NCBI GenBank assembly: GCA_003221515.1
Contig: QHSI01000128.1
Location: 1-55,722, forward strand
Reading direction: 5' to 3'
Origin: Candidatus Rokuibacteriota bacterium
GTDB taxonomy: Bacteria > Methylomirabilota > Methylomirabilia > Rokubacteriales > CSP1-6
DNA length: 55,722 bases
The notes below the pieces were generated by a model. That model was not told where the DNA came from. It saw only the letters and a program-made list of their open reading frames with translations, and made no database searches. Shown here piece after piece: positions 12,154-13,693 of the stretch. Position numbers and translations under genes: made by a program. Every line of letters starts with the position of its first letter. Positions within the stretch are counted from its first letter, which is position 1.

Positions 12154-12345
12154 ATGGCTCAGCGATGCGATATCTGCAGCAAGGGTCCTTCGGTCGGTCA
12201 CAAGATCAGCCACGCGCACAAGCTCACCAAGCGGCGCTGGCTGCCGAATCTCGTGTCGATGCGCGCGCTGGTCGACGGCCGGGCTCGACGCCTCCGCGTC
12301 TGCACGCGCTGCCTCAAAGCGGGCAAGGTCACGAAGGTCATTTAA
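12154..12345 (+). CDS. rpmB: 50S ribosomal protein L28
   Basis: This 63-residue protein reads MAQRCDICSKGPSVGHKISHAHK near its start, with the L28 core RRWLPNL and RRLRVCTRC. Two Cys pairs (C5/C8 and C50/C53) form the zinc ribbon, making it the C+ version of L28. It sits in the large ribosomal subunit near the E site. The ATG at 12154 is chosen over the upstream in-frame ATG at 12115 because AGGGAG precedes it and homologues start here. It is a single-gene unit closed by the hairpin at 12354-12378. Confidence 0.96.
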   Translation: MAQRCDICSKGPSVGHKISHAHKLTKRRWLPNLVSMRALVDGRARRLRVCTRCLKAGKVTKVI

Positions 12346-12353
12346 GCACAGCC

Positions 12354-12378
12354 GGGAGGGGGCAGCGCGCCCCCTCCC
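12354..12378. terminator. Bidirectional hairpin between rpmB and the micro-ORFs
   Basis: GGGAGGGGG (12354-12362) pairs with CCCCCTCCC (12370-12378), a perfect 9-bp stem that a C-G pair can extend into the loop. It lies 8 bases after the rpmB stop and also downstream of the minus-strand lysine micro-ORFs, so it can close both transcripts. No poly-T tail follows. Confidence 0.55.
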
Positions 12379-12428
12379 GAGCAGTACCTGGTGGGAGGCC
12401 GCCACCCCCCACCCAGAAACCAGCGTTG

Positions 12429-12461
12429 CTACTTCTTCTTCTTCTTGGCCTTCTTCTTCAT
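12429..12461 (-). CDS. Lysine-rich micro-ORF 2 (10 codons)
   Basis: The frame reads ATG, three AAG, GCC, five AAG, TAG, which is the peptide MKKKAKKKKK. It is far too short for normal gene calling. It is preceded by AGGAGGTGA (12470-12478), a 9-base match to the end of 16S rRNA, eight bases before the ATG. A very similar 12-codon frame lies 51 bases upstream, which looks like a tandem duplication. Eight of ten residues are lysine, all encoded AAG. Possible roles are a ribosome-pausing leader, a cationic micropeptide, or a translation decoy. I do not recognise it as a known family. The case for translation rests on the Shine-Dalgarno sequence and the duplication, not on homology. Confidence 0.5.
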   Translation of the reverse strand: MKKKAKKKKK

Positions 12462-12469
12462 CGAGCGTC

Positions 12470-12478
12470 TCACCTCCT
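12470..12478 (-). promoter_or_regulatory. Strong Shine-Dalgarno of micro-ORF 2
   Basis: AGGAGGTGA on the minus strand, eight bases before the ATG of the 10-codon frame. It is complementary over nine bases to the usual anti-SD end of 16S rRNA, better than nearly every full-length gene in the window. Confidence 0.65.
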
Positions 12479-12512
12479 CTCGTAGCTAGATTCACCGCGT
12501 CGTCGATCCGCC

Positions 12513-12551
12513 CTACTTCTTCTTCTTCTTCGTGGCCTTCTTCTTCGCCAA
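12513..12551 (-). CDS. Lysine-rich micro-ORF 1 (12 codons)
   Basis: The frame reads TTG GCG, three AAG, GCC ACG, five AAG, TAG, giving the peptide MAKKKATKKKKK. AAGGAGGTGA (12557-12566) lies five bases before the TTG, an essentially perfect anti-SD complement at good spacing. That Shine-Dalgarno starts 11 bases after the stop of the AbiEi-like gene, so the frame is probably cotranscribed with it. The shared pattern with the 10-codon frame (three Lys, Ala, five Lys, stop) supports a duplicated functional unit. No known function can be assigned. Confidence 0.5.
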   Translation of the reverse strand: MAKKKATKKKKK

Positions 12552-12556
12552 TTGCG

Positions 12557-12566
12557 TCACCTCCTT
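12557..12566 (-). promoter_or_regulatory. Near-perfect Shine-Dalgarno of micro-ORF 1
   Basis: AAGGAGGTGA on the minus strand, a 10-base complement of the 16S rRNA 3' end. Together with the AGGAGGTGA of the next frame it makes two maximal ribosome-binding sites within 97 bases. Confidence 0.65.
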
Positions 12567-12577
12567 CCGTCGATCGC

Positions 12578-13627
12578 TCAGTAGCCCATGGCTTCGCGGC
12601 GTAGATGCTCGGCCTGCTCGGGCCCGCGCCGCTCGTAATGCACGAGGTCGGCGTAGAGCTGCGGCAGGGACACGACTTTGAGTCCGCCCTTCTCGAGCGC
12701 GCCGTGGAAGACCCCGAGGTCGTACGGCGCCAGGAAGTGGAGCGCGCCATCGGCCTCGGCGGCCGCGCGCAGCCCGAGCGCCTGGGCGAGCGGCGCCGGA
12801 TCACCCTCGAGGTAGCAGTGCACCGCGGGCAGCCGGAGGTTCGCCGCCAGGAGCGCGGCGCCCGCGTTCAGCGTGAAGGCGTAGCGGCGGCCCGCGCCAG
12901 CGGCGACGCGGGCGACTTCCCCCATGAGCTTGCGTGTCCCGCGCTCGGGGGCGAAGTACGAGGTGACCTCGTTCACGCGATAGGTGTAGGACTCGCACCA
13001 CGCTTCGAGCAGGTCCGACGGCTTCGAGAGCCGGATGCGCTGGCTGTCGTCCCGCTCGACCCACGCGAGCGCCTCGAGCCGCTTCACGACGTTGTGGGAG
13101 TGCCCGAGACTGACTTCCCCGGCCTTCGCCAGCTCCTCGAGCCGCCAGGCTCGGCCCGGCTCGACCAGCAGCGCCCGGACGACGCGGGTCGCGCGCGGCG
13201 CGAAGAGCGAGCGGAGCGGGCGCGTCGAAGGTCGGACGTTCCGCTTCCCCTCCTTCTCGATCAGCACGTTCTCGAAGGCGAGATAGCAGTTGCCCGACAG
13301 ATCGACGAACCCGAGGTTGTTGTTCTTGAGGATCCGGGCGCTCTGGGGCCCGATGTAGACCGCCGCCGCGACGGGATACGCGCCGGGAAGCTCGCGCCGA
13401 ATCTCTTCGAGGCGCGTCACGGACGCCCGGATCTGGCGGGGCTGGCCGAGCGAGCTCACCTCAACGACCAGGGTGTGCTCCTGGCCGGCGAGCTGGAACT
13501 TCGCCAGTAAATCCGCGGTCTGATGGCCTATCTTGGTGTCGGCGCTCTCCTGCCAGTTGCTGGCTCGCGGGAGGAGCTCCCGCAGCCGTTGCACCACCTG
13601 GCGCCGAACCTCCACGGATTTCAGCAT
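12578..13627 (-). CDS. AbiEi-like (type IV TA antitoxin family) DNA-binding protein
   Basis: This 349-residue protein has three visible parts. Residues about 1-125 resemble the restriction-endonuclease-like region seen in some AbiEi-type proteins (HTLVVEVSSLGQPRQIR, GFVDLSGNCYLAF); the place where nucleases carry ExK reads EVS, so cleavage activity is unlikely. Residues about 140-200 form a winged helix (RATRVVRALLVEPGRAWRLEELAK, LGHSHNVVKRLE). The C-terminal part ends LPQLYADLVHYERRGPEQAEHLR, the AbiEi C-terminal pattern. No AbiEii nucleotidyltransferase toxin is adjacent; two lysine micro-ORFs follow instead. A palindromic operator overlaps its own promoter, suggesting autorepression. Family assignment is by motif resemblance. 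Confidence 0.68.
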   Translation of the reverse strand: MLKSVEVRRQVVQRLRELLPRASNWQESADTKIGHQTADLLAKFQLAGQEHTLVVEVSSLGQPRQIRASVTRLEEIRRELPGAYPVAAAVYIGPQSARILKNNNLGFVDLSGNCYLAFENVLIEKEGKRNVRPSTRPLRSLFAPRATRVVRALLVEPGRAWRLEELAKAGEVSLGHSHNVVKRLEALAWVERDDSQRIRLSKPSDLLEAWCESYTYRVNEVTSYFAPERGTRKLMGEVARVAAGAGRRYAFTLNAGAALLAANLRLPAVHCYLEGDPAPLAQALGLRAAAEADGALHFLAPYDLGVFHGALEKGGLKVVSLPQLYADLVHYERRGPEQAEHLRREAMGY

Positions 13628-13637
13628 GTTTCTCTGG

Positions 13638-13674
13638 GTCCACCTCTTTCAGCATCTGCTGAAACAATATGGAC
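13638..13674. promoter_or_regulatory. Compound palindromic operator
   Basis: TTTCAGCA (13647-13654) and TGCTGAAA (13657-13664) form a perfect inverted repeat with a 2-base centre. It is nested within GTCCA (13638-13642) and TGGAC (13670-13674), which are also complementary. The element overlaps the -10 region and leader of the AbiEi-like gene, as expected for autoregulation by a dimeric winged-helix protein. Confidence 0.65.
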
Positions 13675-13693
13675 CATTGAAACTCCGTGTCAA
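13664..13693 (-). promoter_or_regulatory. Sigma70-type promoter of the AbiEi-like operon
   Basis: On the minus strand TTGACA (13693-13688) and TATTGT (13669-13664) are separated by 18 bases. The -35 hexamer is consensus. The -10 abuts the palindromic operator. Confidence 0.65.

Follow-up and report, generated by a model that had tools for sequence, protein, structure and literature searches.

Conserved lysine-rich micro-genes behind an AbiEi-like gene in Rokubacteria and their candidate functions

Background

Can reading frames of ten or twelve codons that encode almost nothing but lysine be genes, and if so, what might they do? The question is raised by a Rokubacteria MAG, in which an original prediction, made from the letters alone, had picked out two tandem frames of this kind on the minus strand of a 55,722-nucleotide stretch of DNA (hereafter, the window). 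Genes of 10–12 codons are too short for standard gene finders and are usually dismissed, and standard gene-calling is likely to miss these micro-genes. A search of the literature, restricted to open-access papers, found no description of such polylysine units.

Results

Two near-pure-lysine frames end an operon

The two minus-strand frames were recovered exactly as predicted, and are the last two cistrons behind an AbiEi-like gene, pointing to a convergent rpmB, with recG beyond rpmB on the micro-ORF strand (Table 1). Read from the sequence, micro-ORF 1 runs TTG GCG (AAG)3 GCC ACG (AAG)5 TAG and micro-ORF 2 runs ATG (AAG)3 GCC (AAG)5 TAG, giving peptides of 12 and 10 codons that are ~ 80% lysine. 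The TTG start of micro-ORF 1 was absent from the original prediction. The Shine-Dalgarno (SD) sequences, described there as about as complementary to 16S rRNA as possible, have 10 and 9 contiguous bases matching the 16S 3' end GGATCACCTCCTTTCTAAGG of a complete phylum member (the window's own MAG has no 16S gene), vs 3–6 bases at 11 neighbouring gene starts. Only 19 of 20,000 random 30-mers drawn from the window contained a match of at least 9 bases. Averaged over the units, the SD has 8.4 nt of perfect complementarity, compared to 3–6 for neighbouring genes, and many units have matches of 9–13 nt to the phylum member's 16S. A unit model built from sequence alone found micro-ORFs 1 and 2 in their own genome with E-values of 7e-14 and 1e-10, respectively, both window sequences having been part of the training set of the model.

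Table 1. Features of the locus in the window
Feature	Position	Strand	Description
rpmB (ribosomal protein L28)	12154..12345	+	PF00830; convergent neighbour
Second inverted repeat	12353..12379	-	G-run/C-run; terminator-like, without long T-tract
Hairpin	12390..12413	-	GGTGGGGGGTGGCGGCCTCCCACC; 15 nt after the stop of micro-ORF 2; 9-bp stem, near-invariant
Micro-ORF 2	12429..12461	-	ATG start, MKKKAKKKKK, stop TAG; hairpin-proximal unit
SD of micro-ORF 2	12470..12478	-	AGGAGGTGA; 9-nt perfect match to 16S 3' end
Micro-ORF 1	12513..12551	-	TTG start, MAKKKATKKKKK, stop TAG
SD of micro-ORF 1	12557..12566	-	AAGGAGGTGA; 10-nt perfect match to 16S 3' end
AbiEi-like regulator (AbiEi_2)	12578..13627	-	First cistron; PF09952, 29.6 bits (cut-off 21)
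Palindrome	13647..13664	-	TTTCAGCAGATGCTGAAA; putative AbiEi operator, at -10 and downstream
Promoter	13664..13693	-	TTGACA - 18 nt - TATTGT; AbiEi/micro-ORF operon

The gene upstream of the units had been called AbiEi-like, and its match to PF09952 bears this out. The protein is predicted to carry an endonuclease-like N-domain, a winged helix near residues 144–200, and an AbiEi_2 C-terminal part. No relatives were found in the PDB by sequence, and an AlphaFold model of moderate confidence (pLDDT 66) gave fold matches to the N-domain and the winged helix only. In this model, the N-domain resembles EndoMS and archaeal repair endonucleases, fused to the winged helix and AbiEi_2. An AbiEii (DUF1814) gene was not found beside it; downstream there are only the micro-ORFs, rpmB, and recG, while the two upstream genes gave no AbiEii match. 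The promoter was conserved in 31 of the 31 orthologs checked. The palindrome has its sole match in the window at this position and was observed in essentially all AbiEi loci, and AbiE-type inverted repeats are present in the promoter (TTTCAGCNNNNGCTGAAA). AbiEi proteins autoregulate via inverted repeats in their promoters (PMC7319586), and on its sequence the near-invariant palindrome is likely an autoregulatory operator.

Units are retained in all orthologous loci with an intact 3' end

Through the AbiEi-like protein, 33 Rokubacteria loci were gathered, 32 of which contain the 3' end of the gene. All 32 keep one or two units, and these close relatives, checked for a lost frame or SD, showed neither. 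Counted over 33 regions (the 32 loci and the window, 60 units), two units were present in 27 and one in 6; the hairpin-proximal unit, in the position of micro-ORF 2, was found in every region, and the first unit, in the position of micro-ORF 1, in 27. The peptides at this site are all variants of M(A)KKK(K)A(T/A/K)KKKK(K), with a terminal G, R, or S now and then. The inter-unit spacers diverge in sequence, while frame, SD, start, lysine content, and stop are retained, which upholds the earlier view of a duplicated functional unit rather than random repeats.

The amino-acid sequence appears to be under selection

We pooled 122 distinct units over all contexts, three of which (22–23 codons) came from outside the main set; the sequences are related, and the counts below are not independent events. 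The frame was kept in all 122, with lengths of 10–25 codons that change by whole codons, and the units swap AAG and AAA, GCN codons, ATG, GTG, and TTG starts, and TAG and TAA stops. Their 1,426 residues comprise 1,002 K, 306 A, 49 T, 30 R, 21 G, 9 P, 6 S, and 3 V, with no Asp, Glu, aromatic, or other large residue among them. A single transition turns AAG into GAG (Glu), yet this was seen in none of the 122 units; the substitutions observed are to R, A, G, T, S, and P, and 111 units have 8 or 9 K+R. TAG ends 72 units and TAA 50, while TGA ends none, vs 105 of 201 flanking large genes at the same loci. A codon-position test over ungrouped columns was weak, as grouping by length only mixes Ala, Thr, and Lys positions, so the informative coding tests are the counts of K columns and of acidic residues.

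It had been pointed out that all lysines are encoded by AAG. This is true of both window ORFs, but it is not special: AAA accounts for 8.2% of the units' lysine codons and 10.9% of those in flanking genes. Such ordinary usage fits selection on amino acids, and a device that depends specifically on AAG codons was rejected, AAA being as frequent in the units as in the genes beside them. The units thus conserve their frame, start, stop, and amino-acid class while varying at synonymous positions, behind a ribosome-binding site of host type. On this sequence record, both frames are genuine, conserved micro-genes, and the units are microprotein genes extreme in length and composition.

A hairpin lies at a constant distance from the last stop

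The hairpin behind micro-ORF 2 contains G-U pairs (7-18 and 6-19) that are sensible only in RNA from the micro-ORF strand. It occurs in 53 of 95 genomes of the phylum, all belonging to the window's own family and mostly with one copy, and is single-copy in the genome of the window. Its positions were paired in 98.4% of cells, vs 55–79% in slid controls; the sequence is near-invariant, and covariation was not significant (46 of 500 shuffles reached the score). Rfam covariance models had no match in the window region or nine related loci, and a known RNA family was rejected as the identity of the region.

The last stop and the hairpin are separated by 15.7 ± 1.8 nt (13–20 nt; 32 loci), although the sequence of this spacer is not conserved. 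By comparison, the standard deviation is 3.5 for the inter-unit spacer and 11.5 for the distance from AbiEi to the unit. From sequence, the constant distance suggests that translation is coupled in cis to the structure at the 3' end, and it is the strongest evidence for such coupling.

Units recur in three settings in the phylum and in other phyla

The unit model has hits in 89 of the phylum's 95 genomes and in only 5 of about 195 genomes from outside it (E 1e-5). Within the phylum, three settings were observed: the AbiEi site, an MNT-HEPN site, and a stand-alone gene. The AbiEi site has the order AbiEi, unit(s), hairpin, convergent rpmB, recG in four families (f1–f4).

The stand-alone unit is found in the window's own genome (C47:118128-118185) and in about 30 relatives, between a divergent B12-radical-SAM gene and, usually, nrdR. 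In 20 of 31 loci nrdR is directly convergent with the unit, and in 8 of 31 (L125, L127, L128, L131, L136, L137, L150, L156) an EamA/DMT transporter follows it. A consensus promoter, TTGACA...TAnnnT, lies 37–82 nt upstream of the start in 27 of 30 loci, the 5' UTR is not conserved, and a conserved terminator-like hairpin, GGCCCTGTCGG...CGGCAGGGCC, follows the stop in most loci. The palindrome of the AbiEi promoter was found in no second-site locus. This copy is present in most genomes of the window's family without a repressor gene, and no other finding argues as strongly that the unit is an independent gene and not a leader.

In other families of the class (loci of f5, f7, and f10 were read), two or three units directly follow a winged-helix MNT and HEPN pair, which PADLOC calls PDC-M05A/B. 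A Methylomirabilis-type genome (G025) is among those with a unit behind MNT-HEPN. A TTGACA promoter with a GTTG...CAAC repeat is conserved across these operons, and at most of these sites an aldehyde dehydrogenase lies downstream. The catalytic motifs of HEPN (R-X4-6-H) and MNT (GSX10DXD) are as given in PMC11586414. Histidine is absent from nine of ten HEPN sequences, the sole motif match being a C-terminal EEH, and GSX10DXD was found in no MNT sequence examined. Methylomirabilia pairs without catalytic motifs (L115-L123, L167) always stand ahead of lysine-rich micro-ORFs; going by these sequences, they are apparently domesticated toxin-antitoxin genes. At both the AbiEi and the MNT-HEPN sites, the units would be co-transcribed with a DNA-binding gene that probably represses itself.

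Outside the phylum, 25 of 47 genomes of a second phylum carry a K-rich unit of 50–75 bases, mostly of 21–22 aa (e.g., MAAKKKAAKKKATKKKAAKKKK). In the loci read, it sits mostly behind an NtrC-type regulator and is followed by a conserved GGACCTGGCACGTCC and a terminator-like repeat. In a third phylum, 4 of 20 genomes match the unit model. The sequences are short and of low complexity, and the units of other phyla are possibly convergent with those of the window; even between sites, homology is not provable from twelve low-complexity residues.

Discussion

Coding-level conservation, the conserved promoter, palindrome, and hairpins, and the recurrence in independent contexts support the reading of the units as micro-genes with a peptide product. 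We lean slightly toward these genes making a free lysine-rich micropeptide that acts in trans as a polycation. The AbiEi-like repressor would lead a small operon with the two micro-ORFs as its last cistrons, and their very strong ribosome-binding sites would give high translation of free peptides of 10–12 residues. The peptide itself would be the selected product, and it would persist and act as a mobile polycation, binding a polyanion (ribosome/RNA, DNA, or polyphosphate) by charge rather than by a defined sequence. How much of it is made would depend on the autoregulated AbiEi promoter and on the second, stand-alone copy. Against this, a free lysine 12-mer may be quickly degraded, and neither the extreme SD nor the frequent tandem layout is needed for a peptide product alone. 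The constant stop-to-hairpin distance is the main reason why our confidence in a peptide acting in trans rises to little better than even.

Known polycations offer a partial parallel. The KPAA tails of AlgP and PhaF and chlamydial Hc2 (histone-H1-like) are likewise K/A-rich, disordered polycations, and lysine-rich tails of the AlgP/PhaF type are thought to bind DNA or polyphosphate (PMC9239181). With 1,002 lysines and 306 alanines in 1,426 residues, the units share this composition, and in Methylomirabilia, where units are richer in alanine (MATKKAAAKKPAKKKK), these resemble a histone-H1-like tail. However, the histone-H1-like examples are long tails or proteins, whereas here the entire product has 10–18 residues (up to 25 in other phyla) and no other domain. 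If the peptide is the product, we know of few conserved non-leader genes as small as these, which would provide a genetically encoded polycation.

A broader version of the micropeptide reading, which we hold only tentatively and consider unlikely as a whole, is that polylysine micropeptides are made throughout the phylum as a genetically encoded polycation, under domesticated antitoxin-type repressors and from a constitutive stand-alone copy. The repressors would be AbiEi_2 in one order and catalytically degenerate MNT-HEPN elsewhere in the class, and the shortest peptide would have 10 residues. If this were true, the occurrence of similar units in one or more further phyla would point to a general bacterial device.

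The main rival, improbable in our estimate but the one to be taken most seriously, is a ribosome pause acting in cis beside the 3' hairpin. Ribosomes would load at the SD, pause on the lysines, and stop at a fixed distance from the hairpin, and the effect would be 3'-end protection, modulation of termination, or decay control of the upstream repressor mRNA, with the peptide as a by-product. A hairpin does stand close behind the last unit in most contexts, at 13–20 nt in the 32 window-type loci. E. coli ribosomes stall at consecutive AAA or AAG lysine codons in toeprints (PMC4363877), and there is a precedent in a toxin-antitoxin operon, where a mini-ORF affects mRNA stability in cis (PMC8708949). 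However, upstream of the stand-alone gene there is no cistron that could be regulated, the units range in length from 10 to 25 codons, there is no bias to the slower AAA codons, and short stop-to-terminator distances may be common in last cistrons. The original prediction had raised a pausing device; its codon-specific (AAG) form is weakened by the ordinary AAA/AAG usage and by the finding in E. coli that AAG-encoded polylysine lowers protein output less than AAA-encoded polylysine (PMC4363877). If the units do act in cis, they would amount to a novel type of translation device at the 3' end. Whichever reading holds, they are a concrete case of selection on a near-pure polylysine frame, in which degenerate toxin-antitoxin genes gain a new partner.

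Less probable still is a module resembling a toxin-antitoxin pair, with the micropeptides in the place of the toxin after a domesticated repressor of antitoxin type. Released on de-repression, they would slow translation or compact nucleic acid. The order of repressor and micro-ORFs parallels abiEi-abiEii. As in AbiE type IV systems, an AbiEi_2-type winged-helix gene comes first and the promoter has a palindrome, and both the promoter and the palindrome are conserved, as the autoregulation described for AbiEi would predict (PMC7319586). The polylysine micro-ORFs, however, stand in the position of the absent AbiEii. Elsewhere in the class, the units follow the MNT-HEPN pair of a type VII system (PADLOC PDC-M05), but the HEPN protein is without the catalytic histidine of R-X4-H and the MNT without GSX10DXD. 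The stand-alone copy, free of a repressor in most genomes of the family, and a universal vertical conservation unlike that of mobile toxin-antitoxin modules both count against this reading. If the pairing with degenerate antitoxin-type genes is functional, it would be a new kind of module.

A lysine leader peptide, in which the supply of charged tRNA-Lys would set termination at the hairpin and so the expression of a downstream gene, seems very unlikely. Amino-acid leader peptides share with the units a short ORF, a strong SD, a run of one codon, and a hairpin right after the stop, which in the units has no long U-tract. Downstream genes that could be cited in favour are the EamA-type transporters after 8 of 31 second-site units, speD after the unit in three examined loci of another phylum, the aldehyde dehydrogenase at most MNT-HEPN sites, and recG beyond rpmB in the window. 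However, the downstream gene varies by site, and none has a known role for lysine; there is no conserved codirectional downstream gene, and the unit persists where none follows. The suggestion that a stalling leader affects a neighbouring gene is not supported at the window's locus, where rpmB is convergent, or at the second site, a stand-alone gene with its own promoter that, across most of the family's genomes, converges on nrdR (20 of 31 loci). With neighbours convergent or not conserved, a leader of a downstream gene was rejected.

We give slightly less credence again to a minigene effect, in which repeated initiation and drop-off of peptidyl-tRNA-Lys would titrate tRNA-Lys or ribosomes. 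The very strong SDs and very short ORFs are what such a sink would use, but the units have 10–25 codons, an intact stop, and a strict composition free of acidic residues. Drop-off minigenes typically have a few codons only. Known minigenes (mg2 of the axe-txe toxin-antitoxin operon, PMC8708949; lambda bar) share a tiny ORF with an SD, and the operon is toxin-antitoxin-like; mg2, however, is two codons long and affects the toxin gene downstream of it, whereas the units in the window have 10–12 codons, lie at the 3' end, and encode a conserved peptide.

Finally, chance AAG repeats beside SD-like purine runs, or a conserved untranslated nucleotide element, can be set aside almost entirely: slippage can create purine-rich low-complexity DNA, but frame, stop, and amino-acid class are fixed while synonymous sites, starts, and stops vary (122 units; 89 of 95 genomes), so that the sequences already contradict this reading, and a random AAG repeat is rejected by the conservation in the 32 orthologs as well as in those 89 genomes.

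Further observations

Several other lysine-rich micro-ORFs were seen in the loci examined. In the second phylum (L173-L186), a short hairpin, GGACCTGGCACGTCC or, in another family, GGATTGGGCACGTCC, lies between the K-rich micro-ORF and the terminator, and by its sequence it could be an RNA element. At another locus (L133), a K-rich micro-ORF, MAKKKAAKKKATKKKGAAKKKK, precedes a speD-like S-adenosylmethionine decarboxylase gene by ~ 100 nt; a hairpin lies between them, and a link to polyamines is possible there. In the window's own genome (C39:24988-25064; L040, ~ 1490–1570), a lysine-rich mini-ORF of a different pattern, MAKGTGMRKEKKKPKKTKK, has an SD and lies just upstream of, and codirectional with, an apparent ABC-F-type ATPase gene.
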